Source: Andreprevotia lacus DSM 23236
GTDB taxonomy: Bacteria > Pseudomonadota > Gammaproteobacteria > Burkholderiales > Chitinibacteraceae
DNA length: 64,000 bases
Assembly (NCBI RefSeq): GCF_900176275.1
Contig: NZ_FWXD01000009.1
Span: 1 to 64,000, forward strand
Direction of reading: 5' to 3'
The notes under the pieces are model-generated. The model searched no databases. It saw only the letters and a list, made by a program, of their open reading frames with translations, and was not told the origin of the DNA. The first letter of the stretch is position 1, and each line of letters opens with the position of its first letter. Shown here in pieces: positions 7,280 through 57,012 of this stretch. The translations under genes were made by a program, and so were the position numbers.

Positions 7280-8356
7280 ATGGCGGAGTGGAGCATCTGG
7301 AGGGCCCTGGAAGAGTGGCGCAGCAAAAAGCACGAGCTCAATCCGGTCTTTGCGCGGGCCGGCATATTCAGCGACTTTGAAACGCAGATTAACCGCATCG
7401 CGCTGGATCTGCGCCGCGCACCGCCCACGCCGCCGCTGTTCAGCGGTGACGAGCATCGCGACCGTGAAGAACTGGGCCGCTTTCGCGATGGTTTTTACCG
7501 CCACTATGACGAAACGCTCTACAAGGTAGAGACGCTGCTGTCGCACGCCTGGGTGCCCGAGGCCGAGCCGATTGCCGGCGAGGTCCGCATGGAGCTGCTG
7601 CAGCTGCGCGGCCAGCTGCGCAGCGCGGCGGGCAAGGTGCCGGATTTCTCGCGGCTGGAGCAGTTGTTGTGGCATTACGCGCGGCTGGATCATCCGCAGC
7701 ACCCGATTCCATCCGAGCTGCTTGCAGAGCGGCGGCGCATGCTGATCGACATTGCCGGCTATCCGCTCACCGTGCAGCATGCGGTCAGCGAACCGTACAA
7801 CGACACCGTGCCGCCGCTGGCCAGCGATGATTTCCGCCAGCAGTATGCCGAGCATTTGCAGGCTTATCTGGACACACCGTGGCTGCATTGCCAGATCGTG
7901 ACCAACTGGTTTGTCACACTGGCGCTTGATGCGGCATTGGCCAGCAAGAAGCGTGATGTGGCCGACGAAATGCGTCTGGCGGCCATGCTGCCCAATCGGT
8001 GGCCATCGCTGTCACGCTGGGCGAGCTTCGAGCATGCCGATCAGGTGTGGTATCTGCTGATTGCCTGTGTGGCCATCGGCGCATTGTTTGTGGAATGGTG
8101 GTGGCTGGCCATTCCGGGCATGGTCTGGCTGGCGCTGTCCAAGGGCGCCCACCGGCGCGAGCGCAAGCAGATCGAGCTCAAGCGCGAGCAGATCGCCTCA
8201 CGCGCGATGCTGATCAAAAAGGTGCGTGATCGTTTCAAGACCGGCCACACCTCGCTGGAAAAGCTGGCCTACCAGCTCAAGCAGCTGGATGAGCGTGGCG
8301 AGTATTTTGACGACAACGTCTACGCCGCACTCAAGCTGCACCATCACGACGCGTGA
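7280..8356 (+). CDS. Uncharacterised protein with a paired membrane helix
   Basis: A 358-residue protein I do not recognise. The first 250 residues are soluble, helical and rich in charged residues. A hydrophobic hairpin follows (about 256-284, tryptophan-rich), then a basic/charged helical tail (about 285-358) beginning HRRERKQIELKREQ. This topology suggests a membrane-tethered cytoplasmic protein. Its 3' end overlaps the convergent amidotransferase gene by 13 bp. No function can be assigned. Confidence 0.7.
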   Translation: MAEWSIWRALEEWRSKKHELNPVFARAGIFSDFETQINRIALDLRRAPPTPPLFSGDEHRDREELGRFRDGFYRHYDETLYKVETLLSHAWVPEAEPIAGEVRMELLQLRGQLRSAAGKVPDFSRLEQLLWHYARLDHPQHPIPSELLAERRRMLIDIAGYPLTVQHAVSEPYNDTVPPLASDDFRQQYAEHLQAYLDTPWLHCQIVTNWFVTLALDAALASKKRDVADEMRLAAMLPNRWPSLSRWASFEHADQVWYLLIACVAIGALFVEWWWLAIPGMVWLALSKGAHRRERKQIELKREQIASRAMLIKKVRDRFKTGHTSLEKLAYQLKQLDERGEYFDDNVYAALKLHHHDA

Positions 8357-9135
8357 GCGTTGGCGGGCAGCAAGGGGCGCGGGTGGCCGTCCACGAACAT
8401 CAACAGCTCGCCCGAAGTCATGGGGCGCCAGTATTCGTTGTCGGTCAGCGGCTGGGTGGCAATGATGGCGACCTGATCCTGCGGCGTGGTCACGGTGGCA
8501 AAGTCGATCTGCACGTCGGCATCGGACAGATGTGCGGTCGAGAACGGCGCCTGCCGCACCACATAGTGCAGATTGGTGCTGCAATGCGCGAACAGCGCGC
8601 GGCCATCCGACAGCAGGAAGTTGAATGTGCCAAGTGCGGCCAGCTCCCGCGTCAGTTCAACCAGGCGGCGATGCAGTACCGCCAGCGCAGGCATGGTCGG
8701 GAATTCGTCTGCCAGATGATTGAGCAACCAGCAGAATGCATGTTCGCTGTCGGTGCTGCCCACCGGCAGGAAGCGGCTGCCGGTGAGTGGCGGCAGCGCG
8801 GTCAGGTTGCCGTTGTGCGCAAAAATCCAGTAACGCCCCCATAGCTCACGCTGGAAAGGATGGGTGTTGGCCAGCGAGGTCACGCCCTGCGTGGCCTTGC
8901 GGATGTGCGCGATCACGTTGCGGCTCTTGATCGGATAGTTGCGCACCAGATCGGCAACGGGCGAGGTGGCCGAGGCCTGGTAATCGAGGAACATGCGGCA
9001 GCCGTGCTCCTCAAAAAATGCGATGCCCCAGCCATCGGCGTGTTCATCAGTCAGCCCGCCGCGACGACGGAAGCCCTCGAACGAGAACACGATGTCGGTC
9101 GGCACATTGCAGCTCATGCCCAGCAACTGGCACAT
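8344..9135 (-). CDS. Class II glutamine amidotransferase (YafJ-like)
   Basis: A 263-residue protein starting MCQLLGM; the cysteine at position 2 becomes the N-terminal nucleophile that hydrolyses glutamine. The HADGWGIAF and FAHNGNL motifs place the glutamine-binding and oxyanion residues. There is no fused synthase domain, as in E. coli YafJ, so the ammonia acceptor is unknown. The start at 9135 is fixed by the Cys2 requirement and by a GGAAAG site upstream. It is divergent from the FliD-like gene. Confidence 0.9.
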   Translation of the reverse strand: MCQLLGMSCNVPTDIVFSFEGFRRRGGLTDEHADGWGIAFFEEHGCRMFLDYQASATSPVADLVRNYPIKSRNVIAHIRKATQGVTSLANTHPFQRELWGRYWIFAHNGNLTALPPLTGSRFLPVGSTDSEHAFCWLLNHLADEFPTMPALAVLHRRLVELTRELAALGTFNFLLSDGRALFAHCSTNLHYVVRQAPFSTAHLSDADVQIDFATVTTPQDQVAIIATQPLTDNEYWRPMTSGELLMFVDGHPRPLLPANAHAS

Positions 9136-44164: not shown

Positions 44165-44746
44165 ATGGATTTCGACGTACTGCGCGCGCTCTATGATTCG
44201 TCGGCCGACCTCACCGAGGGCGAGCCGCCGGCAGCGCGCAACAGCAATTTGCTCAGCCTCGGCATGTTCGTGTTCCAGCTGAAAACCCTGCCGTACCAAG
44301 AGCTGCAGCGGCAAGCCAGCTGGCGCCACCCATCCGGTGCCCGTGTGGGTGCCCGGCCGGTGGCGCAATACCTTGGGCCGGACGATGAAAGCATCACGCT
44401 CAGTGGGGTTTGCCTGCCCGAGCTGACCGGTGGTGTATCGTTCATCGACCAACTGCGCGACATGGCCGATGCGGGTGATGGCTATCCCATGATCGAGGGC
44501 AGCGGCTATGTATACGGCACCTTCGTGATCGAGAAGATCGACGAAACCAGAAGCCTGTTCTTTTGGGATGGTGCCGCGCGCCGCATCGAGTTCACCATCA
44601 GCCTCAAGCGCGTGGATGATGCCGCCACGCCGCCGGCCGCCGATCAAGCCCAGGTCGACGCCATGACGGCGCGTGGCGATGCGCTGCGCAACGGCATCAA
44701 CAAGCGCACGGCTGATGCCGTGGCTGCCGCCAACGGTGCAGGCTGA
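44165..44746 (+). CDS. Tail protein U (gpU family)
   Basis: A 193-residue tail terminator. The central GMFVFQLKTLPYQELQRQ and YLGPDDESITLSGV segments are characteristic. About 40 residues at the C-terminus are extra alanine-rich sequence compared with P2 gpU, as I recall it. The stop overlaps the gpD start. Confidence 0.93.
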   Translation: MDFDVLRALYDSSADLTEGEPPAARNSNLLSLGMFVFQLKTLPYQELQRQASWRHPSGARVGARPVAQYLGPDDESITLSGVCLPELTGGVSFIDQLRDMADAGDGYPMIEGSGYVYGTFVIEKIDETRSLFFWDGAARRIEFTISLKRVDDAATPPAADQAQVDAMTARGDALRNGINKRTADAVAAANGAG

Positions 44747-45744
44747 TGACTGGCCAGCGCATACCCCGACCCATCTTCCGGGTGGTGGTCAACGGGCGCG
44801 ATATTTCCAGCCTGATCGACAACCGGTTGGAATCGCTCACCGTGACTGACAATCGCGGCTTTGAGGCGGATCAGCTCGATCTGGTGCTGCACGATCATGA
44901 TGGCAGCCTTGCCCTGCCGCCGCTCAAGGCCAAGGTAGCCGTGTGGCTGGGCTGGCAGGATAGCGGCCTGATCGACAAAGGGCTGTTCGTGGTCGACGAG
45001 ATCGAGCACAGTGGCGCGCCGGACAAGCTCACTATCCGCGCCAGTAGTGCCGACTTTGCCAGCGGCCTGCTCATGCAGCGCGAGCGCTCGTTTCACGGCA
45101 AGACCGTGGCCGAGATCGTGGCCACTGTCGCCAAGGCGGCCAAGCTCATGCCCGCCGTGTCGCCGGCGCTGGCCGGCCAGGTCATCAGCCATATCGACCA
45201 GACCAACGAAAGCGACGCCAATTTCCTGACGCGGCTGGCCCGTCAGTTCGATGCCGTGGCCACAGTGAAAGCCGGCCGGCTGCTGTTCGCCCCGCTGGGC
45301 GCCGGCCTGACCGCCAGCGGCCAGCTGCTGCCGGCAGTGCTGATCGAGCGCCGTAGTGGTGACAGCCACCGCTACAGCGTGGCCAACCGCGATAACTTCA
45401 CCGGCGTGCGCGCCGAGTACCAGAACACCAAGAAGGGCAAGAAAGGCGAGGTTGTGGCCGGCGAGCGCGACAACCTCAAAACCCTGCGCCACGTCTACGC
45501 CACGCAGAAATCGGCCGAGCGGGCAGCAAAAAGCAGCTGGAATCGCATACAGCGCGGCGTGGCCGAGTTCGGCATCACACTGGCCATCGCCCAGCCCGAG
45601 CTGTTCCCCGAGCTGCCGGCCACGGTGCGCGGCTTCAAGGCCGAGGTCGACAGCAGCGCATGGATCATCACCAAGGCCACCCACACACTGGCCGACCGGT
45701 TCAGCACCGCGCTGGAGTTTGAGTTCAAGCTCGATGATTTGTAA
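44746..45744 (+). CDS. Late control protein D (gpD family)
   Basis: A 332-residue baseplate hub protein. PIFRVVVNGRDISSLIDNRL, QTNESDANFLTRLARQFDAV and the C-terminal ITKATHTLADRFSTALEFE are typical. It is the last gene of the FI operon. Confidence 0.95.
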   Translation: MTGQRIPRPIFRVVVNGRDISSLIDNRLESLTVTDNRGFEADQLDLVLHDHDGSLALPPLKAKVAVWLGWQDSGLIDKGLFVVDEIEHSGAPDKLTIRASSADFASGLLMQRERSFHGKTVAEIVATVAKAAKLMPAVSPALAGQVISHIDQTNESDANFLTRLARQFDAVATVKAGRLLFAPLGAGLTASGQLLPAVLIERRSGDSHRYSVANRDNFTGVRAEYQNTKKGKKGEVVAGERDNLKTLRHVYATQKSAERAAKSSWNRIQRGVAEFGITLAIAQPELFPELPATVRGFKAEVDSSAWIITKATHTLADRFSTALEFEFKLDDL

Positions 45745-45782: not shown

Positions 45783-45844
45783 TCTTTCTTAATTTACAAG
45801 TTGCAATGAGGGAAAACGCAAATTTCAACTGGGAGATTTCAGAA

Positions 45845-47182
45845 ATGCGTGTCACTAGGCTATCCCTTCTACTCTCTGGCCTTGCTGTGGTAATGACTTT
45901 GGGTGCATGTGGCAGCCCATACAACAAAGATTTTTACGTTCAGAAAGACCCTTCCACCGAAGTGCCCAAGCCTGGAACGACCCCTTTACCATATCAACCA
46001 TATGGAAAAGACGTGCATGCAATTAGTCTGGATATAAAACAACGGATGGTTTTTTTTAAAGATGGGGTTGTTTGCCCGGAGCCAAGCCCTGATGCAATAT
46101 CTGCGGCCTTTTCCGAGTTGGATTTAAACGGGACGGTGGAAAATGCGGCGGCAAAGGGGATAATTGGTGCGGCATACCGATCAGGGGAAAATGCTGGTTA
46201 TGTTGGGCTAAGAACAACATCCGTCCAGCTGCTACGCGATAGTTTGACTGGGATATGTTTGGCATATCTGAATACTGGCGATAAAACTGAATATCAAATT
46301 CAGTTACGCAGGCACCAGCGCTTGTTGCTTGGGCTGCTTGCGATTGAACAGTACACTCAAGCGGTTAAAGCTGAAGCAGTAGTGCTCAGCGCCATGCCCA
46401 AGCCCACTGCTAACCCTTCACCAACGCCTGAAGCTACGCCGGCCCCAACTCCCAAGCCTACTGCTGCACCTACTGCGGTACCGTCGCCTACTCCTACAAA
46501 GCCAGCAGATGCGACTAAAGCCCAAGCTCAAAAAGCAAAGCAAGACGCTTCTGCGGCCTCAGGAGAGCAACTGCCAACTCCGGGCCCGACCGCCAAGCCC
46601 GCTGCTAAACCGGTGGCCAAGGCGGTTGCCAAGCCCAAGCCAACTGCTACCCCAATACCAACCCCTCGCCCCGTTGCTGATAGCCAGGACAAGACTTCTA
46701 ATAAAATTGACAAGAATGTAATCGTGCAGCTCGAGCAAGATGTTATCGGTAGTGGTTTTGCTGCTGAAGAATGCCTTAGCTTGTTTCGCGTATGGGTAAA
46801 TGATCGGCAACCCATCAATGCGGATCTCCAGGTTTTAAGAGATAGCGTGTCAACGTATTGTCAAAGGATTTTGAACGTAGACGCGGTTGCAGTCGAGAAT
46901 GGTGTGTTGGCGAAAGCAACACCGGCGCAAAGAACGGAATACGAGAGCTCACAGAATTTGCAGAATGGTTATGCTGCCTTGGCTAAGGGGGATGTACAGA
47001 GGGCGCGAAAGGAGTTTTCACTTGCTGAAGAGAAAAAGCCGGGTGAAAAATGCACATATGAAATAATAACGATTCTGAAATCGTCTGGTGATTCTCTTGA
47101 TAAGGGAACCGCAGGTAAGCTATTGAATAAATGTAGATGGTATTTTCCCCAGTCAACAAGAGATGCATTGGAAAATATCTAG
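45845..47182 (+). CDS. Prophage-encoded lipoprotein with proline-rich linker
   Basis: A 445-residue protein with a lipoprotein signal (VVMTLGAC, cysteine about 22). An N-terminal domain (about 25-180), a long Pro/Thr/Ala/Lys linker (about 183-285) and a C-terminal helical domain (about 290-445) follow, with cysteine pairs in both domains. It is AT-richer than the phage and has its own promoter and terminator. No family is recognised. Likely a lysogenic-conversion gene acting at the outer membrane, possibly in exclusion. Confidence 0.75.
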   Translation: MRVTRLSLLLSGLAVVMTLGACGSPYNKDFYVQKDPSTEVPKPGTTPLPYQPYGKDVHAISLDIKQRMVFFKDGVVCPEPSPDAISAAFSELDLNGTVENAAAKGIIGAAYRSGENAGYVGLRTTSVQLLRDSLTGICLAYLNTGDKTEYQIQLRRHQRLLLGLLAIEQYTQAVKAEAVVLSAMPKPTANPSPTPEATPAPTPKPTAAPTAVPSPTPTKPADATKAQAQKAKQDASAASGEQLPTPGPTAKPAAKPVAKAVAKPKPTATPIPTPRPVADSQDKTSNKIDKNVIVQLEQDVIGSGFAAEECLSLFRVWVNDRQPINADLQVLRDSVSTYCQRILNVDAVAVENGVLAKATPAQRTEYESSQNLQNGYAALAKGDVQRARKEFSLAEEKKPGEKCTYEIITILKSSGDSLDKGTAGKLLNKCRWYFPQSTRDALENI

Positions 47183-47211: not shown

Positions 47212-47241
47212 AAGAAGCCCCGCCAAGTGCGGGGCTTTTTG
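47212..47241. terminator. Terminator between the lipoprotein gene and the lysogenic operon
   Basis: AAGCCCCGC and GCGGGGCTT pair around CAAGT with five T residues on the plus strand. It also lies at the 3' end of the convergent minus-strand operon. Confidence 0.85.
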
Positions 47242-47242
47242 T

Positions 47243-47788
47243 TTATGGTTGGGCTTGCCGCTGGCGCCAGGCAGCGAGGGCGGCGGGCAGTTGCCTGTTG
47301 ACTGAATCCACCAACGGCTCAATCCGTTTCGAGATGGTGTAGCGCGCATACTCGCCATTGGTCAGCAGGATGGCTACACCAAAGACAAAGAGCCACCCAA
47401 AAATCAATGGAGCGATAATCGCAACAGCTGCGTTGAAGGCCATGCAGGTGCCCATTGCGATGGTAATGCACGTCAGGCCAGCCATCACCAACCAGTAGAT
47501 CACTGGCGTGCCCGGGAAAATCTTCAAGTCGAACTGGTCGTCATGAAAATACAGGCCCTTTTGCCAGATTTTCGCCAGCGATTTGGCCGAGACATCCTGA
47601 TGCATCAACAGGTCGAGGCCCACGCGCGCCGGCGCTGAGGCCCATATGCCAGTCTGCTTGGCAAACTGCTGCTCTTGCGCAGCCAGCGTGCTGGCGTGGT
47701 CGCTGATGAATTGCTGTTGCAGTTGGCCGACTCGAACATCGCGGCCGGCAACCACGCCGGCGTCGCCGTGAAAGTGCTGCAGATGCAT
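47243..47788 (-). CDS. Membrane protein with N-terminal VVAGRDV segment
   Basis: A 181-residue protein. The first 20 residues (FHGDAGVVAGRDVRVGQL) resemble the start of the gene product at 48555-49250. A polar helical part follows, then two membrane helices (about 100-115 and 122-145) and a cytoplasmic tail. The function is unknown. It is the last gene of the repressor operon, 80 bp after the previous one. Confidence 0.7.
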   Translation of the reverse strand: MHLQHFHGDAGVVAGRDVRVGQLQQQFISDHASTLAAQEQQFAKQTGIWASAPARVGLDLLMHQDVSAKSLAKIWQKGLYFHDDQFDLKIFPGTPVIYWLVMAGLTCITIAMGTCMAFNAAVAIIAPLIFGWLFVFGVAILLTNGEYARYTISKRIEPLVDSVNRQLPAALAAWRQRQAQP

Positions 47789-47868
47789 AATGGATTCCTC
47801 GCGGAGTTGGTGGAAGCCACATTATGCGGTCGTGCAAAACTACCGTTCGCAATGGAAAGTGACAAATG

Positions 47869-48552
47869 TCACATTTCTTCGGTTATTCTCTTTTTGAGGT
47901 TGGGGTGCCGTTTGATAAATAAATTCCGTAGATCGGGTATTAGATCGACCTTTCCTGAACGTTTAAGAGCTGACCTTTCATAATGGTTGATGATTAATTC
48001 GAAATGGTCTTTGCAAAATTCCATGGAATCACCACGCGCATTTACTTTTATGTCGGCCCGTATTTTCAGTGCCAGTTCGCAGGCTCTCTGACCATATAGT
48101 GCGATGCGCTGTTTTTGGTAGATCCACATATCAAAGTGGTCTGAAATGTCCCAGACTGATTTCATCCAATATTCAACTGCATTATAATCTCGAAATACAT
48201 CTTTGACTTCGGCGACAAACTCAACTGGTAGGTTTTTCCATTCTATTTCTCCTTCGAAAGAAATGGAAGGTAGCTTTAGATCATATGATTGCTCTTCGTG
48301 GTTTTCGGAGAATTCGGCTAATATTTCTTCTATGCTGGCTAGAGTGTTGCTGCAGTCCTCTGCAAATCGTTCTAGTATGTATGCTATTTCGAGTTTTATA
48401 AGCGCATGGACGTGGTTTTGTTTTTTTTTCTCCTTATGGGAGTCAATTAATTTTGCAATGAAATTCCATCCCACGGTGATGGTCGCACTGACCGCCGCAC
48501 TTGACAAAATAATCAGCAGCCAATTTGGCTCTGTCACTGGTGTTGCACTCAT
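47869..48552 (-). CDS. Single-pass membrane protein, unknown
   Basis: A 227-residue protein. An N-terminal membrane helix (about residues 10-30) is followed by a lysine-rich KEKKKQNH and a long helical cytoplasmic or periplasmic domain. It is AT-rich. The start at 48552 lies 2 bp from the stop of the VVAGGDV gene, so they are co-translated. A long overlapping frame upstream of this start is a shadow of that gene. No family is recognised. Confidence 0.7.
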   Translation of the reverse strand: MSATPVTEPNWLLIILSSAAVSATITVGWNFIAKLIDSHKEKKKQNHVHALIKLEIAYILERFAEDCSNTLASIEEILAEFSENHEEQSYDLKLPSISFEGEIEWKNLPVEFVAEVKDVFRDYNAVEYWMKSVWDISDHFDMWIYQKQRIALYGQRACELALKIRADIKVNARGDSMEFCKDHFELIINHYERSALKRSGKVDLIPDLRNLFIKRHPNLKKRITEEM

Positions 48553-48554
48553 CC

Positions 48555-49250
48555 TTACCCCCGATAGTTGAACTGCCACGCACCCAGCATCAGCCCCACG
48601 GTCAGGCCTGATACGGCCATGGTCAGTATCCATTGCCGGGCGCGGGTGCGTTGGTATTTCATTTCTGCGCGCAAGGCGTGCTCTTTGCAGCGCTGTGCCT
48701 TGGCCTGCTCGCCTTCCAGTGCGGTGCGCAGTTGCATGATCTCTTGCCCGGCGGCGGTGTCGGGCGCCGGTGCCATTTGCCAGGTCTGGAACAGGCCAAG
48801 CAGCTCGCGCAGCTCGTCCATGCCAAGGTCGAGAAAGCGGGTTTTGCCCCAGCGAATCACGCAATGATCTATGGCGCGGTTCTGCAATGCCGGGTCGTTG
48901 CCAATGTGGGCGCGCACCCGGGCCACCATGCGCTGTATTGCTGCGGCTTCCTCGATCTCGTCCAGCATCCTGCCCAGTACGGCCACGGCCGGCGCGTAGT
49001 GGGCGCTGCTCATGGCATCCAGCGCGTCGACTTCAATCTCGCGGAACACCCGGCCCCATATCTGGCCGACAGGCAGCCCGGGCCGCAGATTGGATACCTG
49101 CAACACCAGCTCCATCAAGTGGTTGCGCTGTGCCTGCAATATCTTTGGTCGCTCGTCTGTTGGCCGAACCAGATGAATGACGCTGCCGTGGTAATTCACA
49201 TCACCACCGGCCACCACGCCCACATCCTGCCGGAAAACCTGCCCAGTCAT
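48555..49250 (-). CDS. Protein with N-terminal VVAGGDV segment and C-terminal membrane helix
   Basis: A 231-residue protein. It begins VFRQDVGVVAGGDVNYHG, continues with a helical domain (about 35-195) and ends in a membrane helix (about 208-225). This is an N-terminal short motif, helical domain, tail anchor layout. Start and stop are linked to both neighbours (4-bp overlap upstream, 2-bp gap downstream). The function is unknown. Confidence 0.75.
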   Translation of the reverse strand: MTGQVFRQDVGVVAGGDVNYHGSVIHLVRPTDERPKILQAQRNHLMELVLQVSNLRPGLPVGQIWGRVFREIEVDALDAMSSAHYAPAVAVLGRMLDEIEEAAAIQRMVARVRAHIGNDPALQNRAIDHCVIRWGKTRFLDLGMDELRELLGLFQTWQMAPAPDTAAGQEIMQLRTALEGEQAKAQRCKEHALRAEMKYQRTRARQWILTMAVSGLTVGLMLGAWQFNYRG

Positions 49251-49507
49251 ACCCGTTGCGGTTGGTACTCAAAAACCTCGTCGTAACCTTCCGCACGGCC
49301 GGTGATGGCAAAGCCGGCTTCTTTCAGCCGCACATACTCGCCCATGCCCCAGGCGCGCACCACGCGGTAAACCTCGCCGGCCGGCGTGCGTATGGCCACA
49401 TCCATGGCATGCGCGCCGCCGCCCCAAGGATCGGCTGCAACTTTGATTGCCGCATCGATCCGGTGGTCATAGGCGGGGCGTTCGTCAATCAGATATTCGT
49501 TTTCCAT
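49247..49507 (-). CDS. Small soluble prophage protein, 86 aa
   Basis: An acidic 86-residue protein (ERPAYDHRIDAAIKVAADP...YDEVFEYQ) without membrane helix. It overlaps the next gene by ATGA. Related small proteins are seen in phage accessory regions, but no function is known. Confidence 0.65.
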   Translation of the reverse strand: MENEYLIDERPAYDHRIDAAIKVAADPWGGGAHAMDVAIRTPAGEVYRVVRAWGMGEYVRLKEAGFAITGRAEGYDEVFEYQPQRV

Positions 49508-49512
49508 TTGGG

Positions 49513-50358
49513 TTAATGCTCTGCTGTGGTTTCGCTTTTAGCTTTGAAGTTAACAAGCAGGAAAATAGACGTTGCTGAAAATACCTCGGCAAGGATATTG
49601 GCAATTAATTGATAGGTCGGACGGTTTTGGGGTTCGGTTGTGAATTCTGGTGTAATTATATATGCGGCTACAAGCACGATTGAAAAAATCGCGATAATAT
49701 TTAATGAGTAACCTGGTCGTTCGAAGGTTGCGGCAAAGTACAATAAAATTATTGATGCTAAAATATAGGCGGCGATAGGTGCAGTGTAAATAAAATATTC
49801 ACAAAGGCGGCTGGGGGGTGAATGCAGGGGCGAAAGAAATAACGTTACAATGAGTGTGAGAAAAATTCCACACGGTAGAGAGACTGCAAAGTATAGAGGG
49901 CGGTCTTTTGCATCCTTTGAAATAAGCTCGGCGAGAATATGTCCACAAGGTAAAGCAATTAAAAACAAAGCGAGGGCTTTGATGTACTGTAAGGCCGGTT
50001 TTGTTCCTGGGTCGATTGTTAAAGTCGAATTTGCTCCTGAGGCAAAATCTTTTTTGATTGCTTTTATAACTTCTAGTATGTATTCAGTCGAATATTCTGA
50101 TAAGGCTATGAATAGTATCGGTAAAATGTATAGGAATATGCGAGGACAGAATTTTCTGACATCTGATCCTAATAGTAAAATGGCCCCCAGTAATGCGAAA
50201 GGTAGAATGTAGTTAGGAAAGAAGAACTCGTGTTCGATGTGGATGTTTTTTGTAAGGAGGTAAAGGGCATACACCAGAGCAGGGTATATGGCTACCAAAG
50301 CAAGGAATGCTGCTGGTGTAAGTGGGAATTTGGTGCGTGGGTTGATGTTTCCAGACAT
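49513..50358 (-). CDS. Polytopic membrane protein, unknown
   Basis: A 281-residue protein with about eight hydrophobic helices, AT-rich and unlike the phage backbone in codon use. The start at 50358 follows a GGGG site; the in-frame region before it is AT-rich and non-conserved. It stands 131 bp from the upstream gene, so it may have an added promoter. A superinfection-exclusion role is possible but not shown by sequence. Confidence 0.65.
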   Translation of the reverse strand: MSGNINPRTKFPLTPAAFLALVAIYPALVYALYLLTKNIHIEHEFFFPNYILPFALLGAILLLGSDVRKFCPRIFLYILPILFIALSEYSTEYILEVIKAIKKDFASGANSTLTIDPGTKPALQYIKALALFLIALPCGHILAELISKDAKDRPLYFAVSLPCGIFLTLIVTLFLSPLHSPPSRLCEYFIYTAPIAAYILASIILLYFAATFERPGYSLNIIAIFSIVLVAAYIITPEFTTEPQNRPTYQLIANILAEVFSATSIFLLVNFKAKSETTAEH

Positions 50359-50489
50359 TTTTCGACCCCTTGTTGAATGTGTCTGATTTGATTTTTTTAC
50401 TGAATTTGAGCGTGTATGTTTGAGTTTATTGGCGAACACGCCCTGATTTTTTCTTGATTGGAATGTTCTGAGCACTGATTGACAGGAAG

Positions 50490-51668
50490 TTACGCACTCA
50501 ACCCCAGCGCCCACTGCCGCGCCGGCAAATACTCGCCTGTCTTGGTGGACGTCACATGCCCATCAATCCGTTCGATCAGGAACGTGCGCAGCGCTTTGCG
50601 CGTGGTGCAGATCCCTTTCACGTAAATGCCATCTACCGATTGCACCATCACATTGCGGGTGGTGCATTTGCCTGCAGAATCCACGTAATCAAACTCCACT
50701 TCATCTAGGTAAACACGCTCGGCTTTGGGCTTTTTGGTACTCGGTGCTTTGGCAGCGGGCTCGGCCGGCGGCTTGGTGGTTTTGATTGAGGGGGTAGGAG
50801 CCAAAACCGGTGGCTTGCTCGGCTTGACCGGGAAGGCATCGCGGGTGCCGTCGGCGCGCCATTCGCCAGCGCTGATTTCCAGCAGCAGCTCCAGCAGATC
50901 AAGGCGCTCGTCTGCCGCGATGACGCCATCGGCCAGAATATCGGCCACTTTGGCGGCGATTGCTGCACCAGGTAGCGTGCGCTTTACCTCCGCGTGCGTA
51001 TCGATCCACTTGGCGAGGAAGTGCACTTCGTCATCAAGCAGGGCGCTGTCTGCTACCAGTGCACCGCATACCGTTGTCAGTTGTTCGGCCAGTTGCTGTA
51101 GCGGGGTGGTTGGCTGTTGCTGTTCCAGCAGTTGCTTGTACAGCGCTTCGCGTTCGGTCGTTTCGGCCAATCTAACGGCTAGGCTGTCGTTCATGTAGTT
51201 GGCGTTGGCGCGGACTGTAGCCAGCTCAGCTTGCAGCGCCCGTATTTCCTTGGCGGCATCTTCCTGCACGTTTTCCAGCGTGGTACGCAACAGCGCTACT
51301 TCGTTTTGCTGTGGGGTGCTGGCTTGGGCCGGTTTATTGGTTACCACTTTGGGCGGTAGCTTCTGATCGGCTTTTGCTGGCATCGGGCTGAACCAGCGAG
51401 CCGGCCAAGAATCAGGTCTGTGTCGGCGCTGTACCTGTACCCATACAACCAAGATTGCCAGGTAAAGTGCCTCGCCAAACATGGCAAAGCCGGTTTCGGC
51501 ATTGCCAATCGAACCGCCCACAAGGAACAAGGCCAGACCGCCACAAATGGCGCCAACCAGGTGCGAAACCGGCTTGCTGGTGTTTGCGGCGGTTATCTTC
51601 AGATAGAGCACGTTCCAGACCATATAGATGGCCATGACCGTTATGACGAGGATGACGAGTTCTCGCAT
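50490..51668 (-). CDS. Membrane-anchored protein with coiled coil, TerB-like and WYL-like regions
   Basis: A 392-residue protein. Three hydrophobic N-terminal segments (about residues 3-20, 35-52 and 60-78) are followed by a coiled coil (about 120-180), a helical region with ADGVIAADERLDLLELLLEI (TerB-like), a Pro/Lys linker (about 290-320) and a C-terminal domain with VEFDYVDSAGKCTTRNVMV and RKALRTFLIERIDG, which resembles WYL domains. WYL domains sense ligands or nucleic acids. It begins 8 bp after the repressor stop, so it is expressed in the lysogen. Confidence 0.7.
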   Translation of the reverse strand: MRELVILVITVMAIYMVWNVLYLKITAANTSKPVSHLVGAICGGLALFLVGGSIGNAETGFAMFGEALYLAILVVWVQVQRRHRPDSWPARWFSPMPAKADQKLPPKVVTNKPAQASTPQQNEVALLRTTLENVQEDAAKEIRALQAELATVRANANYMNDSLAVRLAETTEREALYKQLLEQQQPTTPLQQLAEQLTTVCGALVADSALLDDEVHFLAKWIDTHAEVKRTLPGAAIAAKVADILADGVIAADERLDLLELLLEISAGEWRADGTRDAFPVKPSKPPVLAPTPSIKTTKPPAEPAAKAPSTKKPKAERVYLDEVEFDYVDSAGKCTTRNVMVQSVDGIYVKGICTTRKALRTFLIERIDGHVTSTKTGEYLPARQWALGLSA

Positions 51669-51676
51669 GGGCGCCC

Positions 51677-52138
51677 CTACTTTTTCTGCTTGTTGATGCC
51701 GAAGGTGAAGTCGGTATTGCCGGTGATGGTGATATCCCCGGTGTTGGATTGCCCTACGTCACCTTTGAAGTTCTGCTGAACCTGTGTGGCCGCCGTGCCG
51801 GGCGGTGCCGCGCCGGCGGTACCTGCGCTTGCCGCAGCCACAGCCGCAACCGAACCGAGCGCGGCCGGCTTGAGCTGGGCGGGTATCTGGCGGTAGTGCT
51901 GCAGCAACTGTGCTTCGTCATGGGCCAGCGTTGCGCCGCCGGGCTGTCCGGTCAGCACATAAAGCACATCTACACCTGCGGCAGCGATGGCGATCAGGTA
52001 GGCCGCGTCGGGCGACCGTTCGTCGGATTCGTAGTTGGTCTGAGTGCGCCGCTGCACCCCGCCGGCTGTTGCCAAAGCCTCTTGGTTCAAGCCTAAGCGC
52101 TTACGTTCCGCTTTGATGCGCTCACCGATAGTGCTCAT
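51677..52138 (-). CDS. CI-like repressor, XRE helix-turn-helix
   Basis: A 153-residue regulator. Residues 4-65 form a helix-turn-helix (IGERIKAERKRLGLNQEALA...NYESDERSPDAAYLIAIA). The rest is an Ala-rich linker and a tail QQNFKGDVGQSNTGDITITG, with no LexA-type peptidase site, so cleavage-based induction is unlikely. It is divergent from the early operon across an operator-like palindrome and heads the minus-strand accessory operon. Confidence 0.85.
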   Translation of the reverse strand: MSTIGERIKAERKRLGLNQEALATAGGVQRRTQTNYESDERSPDAAYLIAIAAAGVDVLYVLTGQPGGATLAHDEAQLLQHYRQIPAQLKPAALGSVAAVAAASAGTAGAAPPGTAATQVQQNFKGDVGQSNTGDITITGNTDFTFGINKQKK

Positions 52139-52527: not shown

Positions 52528-52756
52528 ACCGCCGTCTTTGGATATGGACGATAGGTGGCTGCTTACCATCAATCATGTCACTGCTTCGGTTCACGCAGGC
52601 CGTTACGGTTTGAATGAGCTGCTACCACTGGCGGGCAAACTTGCGGCAGGCCTCGATCAGCAGCAATCCGAACTGTTGATCGCAGTCTTGCTGGAGCGCA
52701 TGAAAGAACAGGGGCAAGGCGTGATTGCCTGCCGGTGCTGCCATGCCAAGCCTTAA
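52517..52756 (+). CDS. Small early phage protein, unknown
   Basis: A 79-residue protein overlapping the previous gene by 11 bp, with an ACGGAG site at good spacing. It is helical and ends in a CRCCHAKP cysteine cluster. The family is not recognised. Confidence 0.6.
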   Translation: MWPRPPSLDMDDRWLLTINHVTASVHAGRYGLNELLPLAGKLAAGLDQQQSELLIAVLLERMKEQGQGVIACRCCHAKP

Positions 52757-52775
52757 TGCAACGCCGGATGCCGCC

Positions 52776-53156
52776 ATGACCAATCAAAAAAATCGTACCA
52801 GCTGCCCGCCAGCAATCCCCAGCAGCCGCCACAGCACGCCGCCGGATCAGCAGCATCAACACCCGCGCCGGGCTGAGCGTGTCGCACGTGCGCCGCGCAG
52901 CAAGCCCAGCCACGCCACGTGCCCCTACTGCGGGGCCACCCTGAATACCCGATCCAGCCGCAAGCTCAGCGAGCTGAGCACCATGCGCTATCTGCAGTGC
53001 GGCGATTTCGCCTGCGGCCGGCGCTTCAAGGCGGTGCTGGAAATCATTAGCGAGATCGTGCCAGACCCTGCGGCGCGGATTCGCGGCAGTTCATCGTTGC
53101 CGGTTGAGCACTTGCTTGGCAGCCAGCAGATGACGATGGATTTTGCCCCGGGCTGA
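52776..53156 (+). CDS. Ogr/Delta-like zinc finger late transcription activator
   Basis: A 126-residue protein with the Ogr zinc finger C49-x2-C52-x22-C75-x4-C80, the exact spacing of P2 Ogr, in HATCPYCGATLNTRSSRKLS and RYLQCGDFACGRRF. Ogr activates the four P2 late promoters with host RNA polymerase. The 48 residues before the finger are polar, Pro/Arg-rich and not part of P2 Ogr. The start could also be 52743. It sits in the early operon, not after D. Confidence 0.88.
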   Translation: MTNQKNRTSCPPAIPSSRHSTPPDQQHQHPRRAERVARAPRSKPSHATCPYCGATLNTRSSRKLSELSTMRYLQCGDFACGRRFKAVLEIISEIVPDPAARIRGSSSLPVEHLLGSQQMTMDFAPG

Positions 53157-53245
53157 TCGGCCCGGGCTTCCTTCCCCTGATTTAACCCCCTCCCAATGCG
53201 CCCGTTTTCGGGCGTAGCGGGATTCCTTTGCCCGGAGAAATCGCA

Positions 53246-53791
53246 ATGTCGCTGCTCGACCGCATGGCTGTACGCAAGTCCACGATCATTGAACGCCTTT
53301 ACGAGCTGGAGCGCGCCGCGCTGCAAGCCGGCATGGTTTGCCTGCTGGTGACGCTGAGCACGCCGGCGCGTTTCCATCCGTCCTCGCCGCACTTCGATGG
53401 CGCCACGCCGGCCGATGCGCAGGGTTGGTTGCTGCGGGTATGGGCCAGCGCCCGTGCCACGTTGCGGGCGCAGGGCATTGGCTTTGCCGGCCTGCGTGTG
53501 GCCGAGCCGCAGCACGATGGCAACGCACACTGGCACTTGCTGCTGTGGGTTGACCCGGCGACGGCGGTGGAGCTGACCCAGGCGATCCGCGATGCGGTGC
53601 GCGAGCACTGCAGCGATGATCGCTGCGCCGTTGTGCTGCCGCTGTTGCCGGGCCGGGTGGTGGGCAGCGTCAGCCGCTATTTTGATGCGGCCGAGGCGGG
53701 CGACCGCTGGTTTGTGCTGGGCGTGTGGGCGGTGACGTGGCGTATCCGGCTGGCCACGTTCCTGAGCAACCGCAACCCGTTGGCCGCGTGA
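53246..53791 (+). CDS. Mini GPA-like HUH replication protein
   Basis: A 181-residue protein matching only the nuclease core of the phage GPA endonuclease. LLVTLSTPARFHP corresponds to motif 1, and GLRVAEPQHDGNAHWHLLLW is the metal-binding HUH motif (H95, H97). The expected YxxxY is SVSRY, so only the second tyrosine (about residue 145) remains. WAVTWRIRLATFL matches the region after the tyrosines of the full protein. It is either a degenerate copy or a regulator of the full-length enzyme 1.1 kb downstream. A CCCGGAG site precedes it. Confidence 0.8.
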   Translation: MSLLDRMAVRKSTIIERLYELERAALQAGMVCLLVTLSTPARFHPSSPHFDGATPADAQGWLLRVWASARATLRAQGIGFAGLRVAEPQHDGNAHWHLLLWVDPATAVELTQAIRDAVREHCSDDRCAVVLPLLPGRVVGSVSRYFDAAEAGDRWFVLGVWAVTWRIRLATFLSNRNPLAA

Positions 53792-54894: not shown

Positions 54895-57012
54895 ATGACC
54901 GCTGCCAGCCAGATTGCGGCCGAGATCGCATCGCAGATCGCGCAAGCGCGCTTTGCCGCGAGCAACGATGGCCCGGCCACTGACCCAATCCAGCGTGTGC
55001 GCTATCGGGTTGAGCGCAGCCAGGTGGCCGACTTTGACCGGCTCTCGATAGGCTTGCCCGACTACCTGAAACGCCCGCTGCGTGCGAGCTGGCACCGGCT
55101 GCGCAAGCAGAAAGAGGCCGGGGCGTTGGCCCGTGCCAATACCTTCGTGCGCGAGTTCATGACCGAGTTACCCACCGTAGCCGGTGGTTTGCCCATCGGA
55201 ATGGATGACGATGAACTCGGCAGCGTTGCCCATGCTGCTGCCAATGACTGCGCAAAGATCATGGCGCAGGCGGAATCGGGCGAGGCCGTGCCCGTGGTGG
55301 CGGCCGGTGGCCGCTGCGTGCGCCGGCCGCGCTTTGTGCTGGAGGCATTTGCCAAGGCGCTGGATATGGGCGTGCTGCCGTCGCTGGACGGCTTGACCCC
55401 GGCACAGTTCGACACGCTGCAGAAGCGGTTGGCTGATGAGAAGTGGTGGCGCGGGCGCCTCAAGCGCTTTGTCACCCGGGCGGTAGAGCAACTGCTGATC
55501 CGCTTGGGCTGCGTGCATCGCAAGCGCTCGCCCTATCTGTCCGAAGGGTCGTTGACCCGTTTGCTGGCCCGCGATGCCCGTAATGAAAAAGCGCTGGCGC
55601 TGGCCGAGGCGACGAACGAGCGCGGCCAGACTTACACATTGGCCGAGTTGAGCCGCCGCACGGTGGCCAACCCTGCGATCAGGCGTACCGAGTTGATGGT
55701 GAGGGTGCGTGGCACCGAAGAACTGATGAATGCGCTGGGCTACGAGGGCTATTTCATCACCATCACGGCACCGAGCAAGTACCACGCATGTAGCGACAAG
55801 TACGGCACCAATGGCAACCCGCGCTATAACCCGCGCGACACGCAGGACTATCTGTGCGCCAACTGGGCGCAGTGCCGTGCGCAGTTCAACAGCAAGCACA
55901 ACCAGATACCTGTGATCGGTGTCCGGGTGGTTGAACCCCATCACGATGCAACGCCCCACTGGCACATGCTGGTATGGGTGCCGCCGCACCAGGCAGAGAA
56001 GATGCTCGCCATCATGCGCGCCAAGGCGCTGGAGGTGGACGGCTGCGAGCCGGGCGCGGCCGACCATCGCATGACGGTGGAGAAGATCGACCCCCGCAAA
56101 GGGTCAGCGGTGGGGTACATCGCCAAATATCTGGCCAAGAACATTGATGGCGAGTTTGTGGGCACCGATGACGAATCGGGCCTTGCTGCCGACAGTGGCG
56201 CGCGCCGTGTGGCCAAGTGGGCAACGTGCTGGCGCATCCGGCAGTTCCAGATGTTTGGCCAGCCGCCGGTGACGATCTGGCGCGAGCTGCGCAAGGTGCG
56301 CGCGTTGAACCCCGAGCACGGCGACGAGCTGATCTTGCGCCCGCTGCATGCGGCTGCCGATGCCGGCGACTGGGCCAGGTACTGCAATGCCTATCGCAGC
56401 GTGCAGGGCGGCCTGCGGATCGGCTTCGAGCAGCTGACCGAGCCGAACAAAACCAGCGGCGAAATGCTGATCCCCCTGAACAAGTACGGCGAACCCAAGT
56501 TCGTGCGTGCGGCCGTGGCCGTGTTCGACGGCACCGGCGAGGTGATTGAGCGGATTCAGACCCGGCTGCATGAGTGGGATGTGAAGTGGGGTCGCGACCA
56601 GACTGTTTCCAACCTCTTGGGCCGCATTGAGGCGGCGCCTTTGGGTGTTGATTTTGAGCGCAGCGGCGCAGCCGCGAGCACTTGGACTTGTGTGAATAAC
56701 TGTAATCGGTCGGAGCGGGATGACCTCGCGCAGCGGGATTTGCTCCACCGATTGGATCAGGAAATCGCGTCCATTCAGACCGATTCAGCGGCGCAGATTG
56801 CGACGCCAGATTTTGCGGCAGCGCTGAACCAGCTTGCTGCCCGCAACCGAACCACCGCCCAGCGCGGCAGAAGCTACAGCCAGGCACTGGCAGACCTCGA
56901 CGCGACCATAGCCCGGGTGGCCACACACAGCCCGGCCGGTGCCGGGCATCTGCGGGAGCAACGCGCTGTACTCGAATCAATCGGCCCGGCGGCCTATGAC
57001 GTCCGGCCTTGA
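54895..57012 (+). CDS. Phage replication endonuclease (GPA/gpA family)
   Basis: A 705-residue rolling-circle initiator. Motif 1 is YEGYFITITAPSKYH, the HUH motif is EPHHDATPHWHMLVW (H355, H357), and the catalytic tyrosines are in GYIAKYLAKN (Y408, Y412). P2 gpA nicks its own origin inside the gene and forms a covalent link. The arginine-rich N-terminal third and helical C-terminus are normal for the family. It is preceded immediately by the PPC protein gene. Confidence 0.93.
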   Translation: MTAASQIAAEIASQIAQARFAASNDGPATDPIQRVRYRVERSQVADFDRLSIGLPDYLKRPLRASWHRLRKQKEAGALARANTFVREFMTELPTVAGGLPIGMDDDELGSVAHAAANDCAKIMAQAESGEAVPVVAAGGRCVRRPRFVLEAFAKALDMGVLPSLDGLTPAQFDTLQKRLADEKWWRGRLKRFVTRAVEQLLIRLGCVHRKRSPYLSEGSLTRLLARDARNEKALALAEATNERGQTYTLAELSRRTVANPAIRRTELMVRVRGTEELMNALGYEGYFITITAPSKYHACSDKYGTNGNPRYNPRDTQDYLCANWAQCRAQFNSKHNQIPVIGVRVVEPHHDATPHWHMLVWVPPHQAEKMLAIMRAKALEVDGCEPGAADHRMTVEKIDPRKGSAVGYIAKYLAKNIDGEFVGTDDESGLAADSGARRVAKWATCWRIRQFQMFGQPPVTIWRELRKVRALNPEHGDELILRPLHAAADAGDWARYCNAYRSVQGGLRIGFEQLTEPNKTSGEMLIPLNKYGEPKFVRAAVAVFDGTGEVIERIQTRLHEWDVKWGRDQTVSNLLGRIEAAPLGVDFERSGAAASTWTCVNNCNRSERDDLAQRDLLHRLDQEIASIQTDSAAQIATPDFAAALNQLAARNRTTAQRGRSYSQALADLDATIARVATHSPAGAGHLREQRAVLESIGPAAYDVRP

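Follow-up and report, generated by a model that had tools for sequence, protein, structure and literature searches.

A prophage repressor and two membrane proteins encoded downstream of it in one operon carry matching short Gly-rich motifs at opposite termini, and pairs of this kind recur in related prophages. The operon lies in a 64,000-nucleotide (nt) stretch of Andreprevotia lacus DSM 23236 (contig NZ_FWXD01000009.1, positions 1 to 64,000), which we refer to as the window; its seven closely packed minus-strand genes, A to G, occupy positions 47243-52138. The motif is C-terminal in the putative repressor A and N-terminal in the membrane partners E and G:

51677..52138, minus strand: gene A, immunity-type repressor, 153 amino acids (aa); helix-turn-helix (HTH), two further helices and a disordered C-terminal tail
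51716..51775, minus strand: repressor tail motif QNFKGDVGQSNTGDITITGN, residues 122-141, followed by 12 residues to the C-terminus
48555..49250, minus strand: gene E, membrane partner of 231 aa; the motif at the N-terminus is followed by a helical body and a long C-terminal helix with a hydrophobic end
49182..49241, minus strand: E N-terminal motif QVFRQDVGVVAGGDVNYHGS, residues 4-23, with counterparts at the same place in loci L035 and L037
47243..47788, minus strand: gene G, 181 aa, the other membrane partner; hydropathy shows two hydrophobic segments in addition to the N-terminal motif
47729..47779, minus strand: G N-terminal motif QHFHGDAGVVAGRDVRV, residues 4-20; match to the tail-only profile (see below) over residues 4-18, E-value 1.9

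The segments GVVAGGDVNY of E and GVVAGRDVRV of G occupy the same positions, residues 11-20, with GVVAG[GR]DV common to both at residues 11-18. The tail of A shows 8 identities in 20 columns with residues 4-23 of E and 6 in 17 with G. Its motif is roughly of the type h-x-G-x-h-G-Q-x-h-x-G-D, with R-[VI]-A-G-R-D-[YF] as the enterobacterial form. A preliminary description of this DNA had listed the seven packed genes, the near-identical segments of E and G and a related segment in the repressor tail, and we find all three. It had also called the repressor CI-like. A is indeed a small repressor-type protein, matching HTH_3 (E-value 1.3e-8) and the transcriptional regulator family phrog_8 (4.5e-15), but the CI-like architecture did not hold. 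In the AlphaFold2 model the HTH is confident, residues 115-126 and 128-153 have a predicted local distance difference test score (pLDDT) below 50, and from residue 115 on there is a tail predicted to be disordered and no folded C-terminal domain. Lambda CI differs from A, which has only this disordered tail instead of a folded C-terminal domain. Judging by the model, cleavage-type induction of A is therefore unlikely.

Matching ends in related prophages

Searches of 150 related genomes detected E in four and G in two (own genome counted). The four 18-kb regions holding the family appear by eye to be the same kind of prophage, with the repressor followed by variable cargo and then by a gene-D-like open reading frame (ORF). 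In G013 the repressor ends in QVAGDLGQNVAGNVTIEGGFNMGGKKK and E has RIAGDVGLVAHGSVTIHGGLKM near its start; in G023 the repressor end is HVAGDIGQQVAGNVTVKGGFNM and the E N-terminus HIAGDVGVVAHGSVTIHGGLQM. Homologues of E merely 24-26% identical to the window protein still keep the N-terminal segment, and their repressors keep the C-terminal one, so we took the repressor tail to be the other half of the motif.

A wider set of 171 loci (96 after dereplication) comprised 80 viral contigs, 80 genome loci, seven phage records, the window and three family regions. Contigs and genome loci were collected with a repressor alignment (A4) and are the best 80 of at least 489 and the best 80 of at least 291 relatives, respectively; the phage records came from a tblastn search with the repressor (63 matches, seven fetched). 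Genes in the loci were called with a simple script, not an annotation pipeline. Repressor tails ranged from none to a clear motif, and a loose tail pattern was found in 54 of the 171 loci. Pairs of tail and downstream N-terminus include the following:

Burkholderia phage Carl1: tail QNFEGANIGQHVTGDV, downstream N-terminus MNQKFDGEIGQVAGGDV
Undibacterium: tail IIHGSIGQVIEGNL, downstream N-terminus NEIKGDVGQLVMGDS
Janthinobacterium: tail HHGDIGQNIYGDI, downstream N-terminus FSGDVGQNVFGNI
Thiothrix: tail VVIHGEVGQSF, downstream N-terminus KVEIQGDVGQVF
Pseudacidovorax: tail HGHAAGRDVNV, downstream N-terminus HGHAAGRDVNV
Pseudomonas toyotomiensis: tail QQFNGPVGSVTSGDV, downstream N-terminus QQFNGAVEQVAAGDI

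At L054 a second HTH gene (7953-8444) stands right after the tailed repressor and has the same kind of tail (GQQINGDVYGEVSG).

A second motif type, seen in the G protein of L034 and the E proteins of L007 and L028 (VQGIVTPQVLQTGN), was set aside: its likeness to the tails was judged by eye alone, local alignment gave no significant score for L034, and it was not counted. In L028 and L036, which belong to the same prophage type, the repressor and B-like frames appear broken, and sequence resembling the tail is found past the HTH part in a different frame; the L028 tail is visible solely in such a second frame. A 193 aa protein follows the repressor in both L034 (11289-11870) and L036 (8179-8760), prophages of this second motif type; its end is, we presume, SHOCT-like.

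Other searches added little. A tblastn search of GenBank phages with G, E, the L008 homologue of D and the L008 and L007 homologues of E gave no match; matches were obtained with the repressor and with the enterobacterial partner (a single phage, present as two records). Scans of IMG/VR with G alone, E alone or a G alignment returned only one contig, identical to the window genes; a first E alignment added one contig, L028. At class level, G was found in the window's own genome only. With the first E alignment, 17 of 321 genomes gave matches; those outside the window's own genome fell on the coiled-coil/membrane end (positions 149-261 of 265) and were discarded as unrelated. With a wider E alignment, 22 of 398 genomes of a phylum sample (own included) were matched, a count that we rejected as a prevalence figure; many of these matches are frames of 337-429 aa, several with two body copies, and are probably Flk or its relatives.

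Tests of the tail/N-terminus pairing

A tail-only profile, trained on 42 repressor tails and no partner, was run on the 3,155 genes called in the 171 loci. It gave 18 matches: 15 at the N-termini of downstream genes, among them window G, two at the ends of further tailed HTH genes (L098, L054) and a stray match in L108. The favourable region, the first 50 residues of downstream genes, makes up 5.2% of residues, giving a P-value of about 3e-17, or about 4e-15 with near-duplicates collapsed, if matches are assumed to be independent. For 14 of the 15 N-terminal matches the anchor repressor has the tail pattern; in the remaining locus (L098) the tail belongs to a second HTH gene.

The specificity of the pairs was assessed by permutation. 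In 43 loci with at least five Gly among the last 45 repressor residues, tails scored 37.1 against their own downstream genes vs 29.2 against those of others (0 of 20,000 permutations), and strict dereplication to 36 loci left the difference in place (34.5 vs 28.6; 0 of 20,000). Two of the 96 loci were left out, having no downstream ORF. At the DNA level, the 22 aligned pairs have 213 identical residues with degenerate codons, and at 95 of them the codon is the same (0.446 vs an expected 0.441 or so for independent choice, a value computed with an approximate residue mix); a few of the aligned columns fall outside the motif (all of those in L069, some in L193 and L139). Codon sharing at chance level argues against a shared DNA element or a recent duplication as the origin of the matched ends, and we disfavour both. 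The 47-base word shared in L145 is simply the overlap of the two genes, the partner frame starting 49 bases before the repressor end.

The converse test started from the partner. Viral contigs were sought with peptide patterns from the enterobacterial partner's body and then confirmed with the full-length partner, which left 74. In 74 of 74 the partner N-terminus has an AGRD-type motif, and in 74 of 74 a frame ending in an AGRD-type tail lies no more than 1.5 kb upstream; the departures are an R to C change in L233 and an extra small frame between repressor and partner in L211. Many of these contigs are near-identical, and 36 distinct tail/N-terminus combinations are represented.

Several points weigh against the membrane-coupling reading set out below. 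In the window the match between tail and E is modest (z = 1.6, a level that 14 of 200 shuffled tails also reach) and ranks 7th of 36 in its row and 10th in its column, and the tail-only profile did not detect window E. Evidence from this single window is weak; the case for matched ends rests on the wider family. The profile was trained on tails of the same loci and therefore reports within-family matching, not agreement with an outside model; the loose pattern that selected its training tails also admitted a few lacking the motif. A small cognate excess is present in the 51 Gly-poor loci too (29.75 vs 27.46, p 0.0013), which indicates that shared composition contributes something. Moreover, 12 of 17 re-examined tailed or possibly tailed repressors had no visible partner in the locus (L051, L055, L056, L060, L070, L101, L112, L120, L153, L166, L167 and L172), so that the tail either acts without a partner or has one encoded elsewhere. 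Finally, the downstream position of the partner was partly built into the search; the converse test is the check made without that assumption.

Partner proteins

E matches phrog_5825 (1.1e-16) over residues 25-173 of 231 (profile positions 33-172 of 208), that is, over most of its length. Its AlphaFold2 model (mean pLDDT 86) has a confident helical body and a disordered N-terminus, residues 5-19 falling below 50. By hydropathy, 20 of the 29 parsed partners have one hydrophobic segment and four have two (window G, L034 G, L109, L193), while five stay below the threshold (window E, L103, L139, L141, L145). The E homologues of L028, L037 and L098 do reach it.

A profile of seven E proteins (A5) matches ten partners outside its training set (L069, L084, L137, L047, L139, L040, L038, L052, L109 and L104; 1.8e-11 to 9e-5). 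After removal of the motif columns seven of the ten are still below 0.001, L040, L038 and L104 drop to 0.006-0.017, and window G is lost; the likeness is thus partly the motif itself, and the body of G differs. Homologues of G among the fetched loci are confined to one related genome (L004, L033, L034) and L047, making three prophages with G-like proteins; L047 carries a repressor, an E-like and a G-like protein, as the window does. Ten partners, selected for this feature, have two conserved cysteines and a tryptophan in an end segment beyond the anchor, which would be periplasmic. A narrower pattern for the segment matched 3 of 29 partners and was too narrow; DUF1496 matches are weak in two of the proteins (L040, L047).

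The body of E offers a structural lead:

48945..49142, minus strand: E body, residues 37-102, shaped like the C-terminal domain found in annealing proteins of phages (Sak, Red beta)

Against chain 1A of 8qe9, a structure of 80alpha Sak in complex with the SaPI2 Stl regulator, these residues give Z 9.2 and a root-mean-square deviation of 1.4 over 62 aligned residues, with a Foldseek E-value of 0.87 (0.2 for chain 1F). No Foldseek E-value is below 0.01, and the likeness is accordingly a lead only; a sequence search of solved structures found no relative of E (best E-value 1.1). The partner body shape also resembles the ORF6C and GemA domains (ORF6C, RecT and GemA stand in the first viral-library rows), and PHROG matches of partners to phage antirepressors are weak (0.0017 to 0.0043). 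Together, these resemblances to Sak, Red beta, ORF6C, GemA and antirepressors favour a regulatory role. The enterobacterial partner is single-anchored, and its body, too, looks regulatory.

Prevalence in E. coli

Of 5,426 complete E. coli genomes, 515 contain sequence matching the repressor-partner stretch of phage 520873; in 499, about 1 genome in 11, the match spans at least 80% of the query. These are sequence matches and may include pairs with a broken partner. Genes were read in two such genomes, L125, with an intact 216 aa partner, and L126. Phage 520873 has its own partner broken up into short frames. Among 15 matches listed, the genes are named HTH protein, transcriptional regulator, membrane protein or hypothetical protein, plus a DUF2511 protein. 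The pair is therefore common in E. coli, and in the records examined it carries no functional name. The enterobacterial pair of L077, unlike that of phage 520873, has no near match in the E. coli genomes. The gene after the E. coli partner in L125 (5191-5538) is annotated DUF2511, and the Burkholderia loci L048 and L049 have a small gene of lipoprotein or secreted type at that place.

Prophage setting and other operon genes

The window operon sits in a P2-like prophage, with the following landmarks:

52725-53156: Ogr/Delta zinc finger (Ogr_Delta), Pfam-type match, P2-like context
53228-53791: partial Phage_GPA match, profile positions 160-277 of 321
44746-45744: gene-D-like ORF, recognised by eye
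47215..47237, minus strand: terminator-like hairpin downstream of G, stem of 9 pairs, 7 of them G-C

A has the marks of a P2-like immunity repressor, being an HTH protein located between ogr/GpA and gene D and lacking a folded C-terminal domain; its repressor activity is putative. The operon starts at this gene, and its layout fits the expectation that it is active in the lysogen. Intergenic distances from A-B to F-G are 8, 131, 5, -4, 2 and 80 nt. The hairpin has to be seen against a background of 16 terminator-like sites in the region vs 7.8 in shuffled sequence, and the same scan of the region found no promoter-like site upstream of A. A 705 aa ORF at 54895-57012 looks like a fuller copy of the replication protein matched partially at 53228-53791. 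Opposite the operon end, a plus-strand ORF of 458 aa (45806-47182) has a lipoprotein-like start and a long P/T/A-rich stretch; it has no convincing family match, and no relative in the fetched loci except copies of the window's own region.

The remaining genes of the operon are:

50490..51668, minus strand: gene B, 392 aa; hydrophobic N-terminus, phrog_3989 middle (TerB-like by eye), weak WYL-like C-terminus
49513..50358, minus strand: gene C, hydrophobic protein, 281 aa, G+C 0.405
49247..49507, minus strand: gene D, 86 aa, phrog_19905 (4.9e-6); 4-nt overlap with the start of E
47869..48552, minus strand: gene F, candidate defence cargo, 227 aa; N-terminal hydrophobic stretch, G+C 0.409

B matches two unnamed families, phrog_3989 (7.3e-17) and phrog_6785 (1.4e-9), and WYL at 0.022, under the cut-off; relatives occur in other loci of the set. 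It joins TerB-like (by eye) and WYL-like parts whose counterparts are separate genes in related prophages, some of them carrying a BRCT-like stretch (by eye; L224, L078), where they stand near a tailed repressor and an E-type partner. The D-E pair recurs in two related prophages, D being 53 and 55% identical in L006 and L008. The G+C of C and F is far below the 0.61 of the window, and both are therefore probably separate inserted cargo. C has no family match except a weak one to a holin PHROG (0.16). F matches the PADLOC candidate defence model PDC-S67 over residues 35-195 (1.4e-8), a family that is itself a candidate and has no curated cut-off.

Interpretation and alternatives

The module, its matched ends, their positions, their conservation at the protein level and the disorder of both ends in the two window models are supported by sequences and models. 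The preliminary description had made its proposal depend on conservation of the segments in homologues, which the diverged E homologues and their repressors display. The link between repressor and membrane protein that it proposed is well supported at the sequence level, given that 15 of the 18 tail-profile matches are N-terminal in downstream genes; its observation stands, and its interpretation is in this part supported.

That the matched ends are terminal and, in the models, disordered suggests direct contact between repressor and partner. We judge the chances to be about even that the module couples the prophage repressor to the membrane through binding of the tail to the partner N-terminus. 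Binding, tethering, topology, signal and phenotype are what we infer here, along the following lines. A repressor with a disordered Gly-rich tail and a short motif in place of a folded C-terminal domain would be made together with one or two downstream membrane-anchored proteins having the same type of motif at the N-terminus. The two ends would bind, probably as stacked short beta strands, and the partner would hold or concentrate the repressor at the membrane. A change in the state of the partner would then tune repression, and hence lysogeny or superinfection immunity, in response to a signal sensed via the helical body or, in some relatives, via the two-cysteine segment beyond the anchor. 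We favour the partner as a sensor or regulator; the contact might take the form of amyloid assembly.

The evidence does not separate tethering from its main rival, a Rex-like exclusion system, which we regard as possible though on the unlikely side. In such a system E and G would be the effectors in the membrane, with the repressor as sensor or adaptor: on superinfection the incoming phage would shift the repressor, the ends would assemble, the effector would damage the membrane and the infection would be aborted. Exclusion or abortive infection, as put forward in the preliminary description, is plausible from the position of an operon that has the repressor as its first gene and should be active in the lysogen. 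The four partners with two hydrophobic segments and the candidate defence match of the adjoining cargo gene F also speak for it, as does RexAB of Pseudomonas putida, where a DNA-binding protein is reported to trigger a membrane effector. However, PADLOC gave no match for E or G and only weak ones for ten related partners (best 0.0053, in the coiled-coil region of one protein), the enterobacterial partner has a single anchor and a body that looks regulatory, and nothing points to toxicity.

Other explanations of the likeness dispense with a dedicated repressor/partner switch of this kind or give it a different form. The ends could be independent oligomerisation tags, each protein self-associating via the same kind of Gly-rich motif and the likeness arising from shared chemistry and exchange with no direct contact. 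Tails lacking a visible partner and the two HTH genes of L054 with one kind of tail would fit such tags, but cognate pairs match better than non-cognate ones, all 74 enterobacterial partners accompany a tailed repressor and the codons are independent, making this account improbable. Similarly low in our estimate is amyloid-type templating, a prion-like switch in which one of the two proteins would convert the other through a cross-beta seed built from the motifs. The ends contain much G, Q, N and V and are disordered in the models, and, as in bacterial amyloid signalosomes, the motif-bearing proteins are encoded close together and one of them is bound to the membrane; yet no NLR was matched and the motif core is unlike the RHIM-like G-phi-Q-phi-G. 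A chance or compositional likeness of short Gly-rich ends would agree with the weak statistics of the window alone and with the small excess among Gly-poor tails; the profile, permutation and converse tests contradict it, and we consider it highly improbable.

To our knowledge, how prophages with no cleavable repressor sense their host is an open question. A terminal motif shared by a repressor and a downstream membrane protein would provide a direct physical route from the envelope to the lysogeny switch; alternatively, it could mark a repressor-triggered exclusion system. As a speculative generalisation, to which we give a rather low probability, many P2-like prophages may control lysogeny via a membrane receptor: the tail and the receptor N-terminus would assemble through their matched sequences, in an amyloid-like manner or otherwise, and so shift the repressor between DNA and membrane. 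If this holds, these prophages have a non-SOS, envelope-linked switch with lineage-specific motif codes, the genes for which are present in roughly one eleventh of complete E. coli genomes.

Comparison with known systems

The literature search returned no title or abstract, among the openly licensed matches listed, that describes a prophage repressor and a membrane protein with a shared terminal motif. In PHROG, families 5825 and 6521 are matched by E and by Burkholderia and enterobacterial partners, and the phrog_5825 match to the E. coli partner starts at residue 1 and so takes in the motif. The entries read unknown function for 5825 and membrane protein (moron) for 6521, and as shown they do not contain the pairing with a repressor. 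E and the E. coli partner also match the flagellar regulator Flk over the body (2.1e-8 and 8.6e-16), but with 33.9 and 58.1 bits vs a curated cut-off of 353, so E fails as an equivalog, and the match begins past the N-terminal motif. Similarly, residues 37-102 of E share their shape with the annealing proteins 80alpha Sak and Red beta (Z 9.2 and about 7), whereas E is membrane-anchored and has no annealing domain; for helical proteins, Z below 13 may mean a mere common arrangement.

In lambda, the cI-rexA-rexB genes give a positional parallel, with exclusion genes adjacent to the repressor, and the present modules share with cI-rexAB-type systems a prophage membrane protein beside a DNA-binding protein. 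Pfam and PADLOC scans showed no similarity to RexA or RexB, the presence of RexAB models in PADLOC being unchecked. The present case differs from the lambda and P. putida Rex systems, as far as these are described, in that the repressor itself bears the matching end. Genes 43-45 of the Gordonia phage CarolAnn are similar in that defence genes are co-transcribed with the repressor; there, however, the repressor gene is dispensable for defence, and the portion of that report available to us does not mention a shared end motif.

The closest parallel in layout is with the NLR/Bell pairs of BASS 1-10, described as having a short terminal motif on the products of neighbouring genes, at opposite termini (C- and N-), with one product thought to be membrane-targeted. 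The present proteins likewise carry the motif at opposite termini of products of neighbouring genes. Their likeness to bacterial amyloid motifs consists of this layout and a Gly-rich composition, and the core differs from the G-phi-Q-phi-G of RHIM-like motifs. None of the seven operon proteins gave an NLR-type match at E-values up to 1; BASS hosts are reported to be mainly actinobacteria and cyanobacteria, whereas those here are proteobacterial, and a repressor stands where BASS has an NLR. The layout is that of a bacterial amyloid signalosome with a phage repressor replacing the NLR and with other bodies, and the finding suggests looking for paired terminal signalling motifs outside NLR systems as well.

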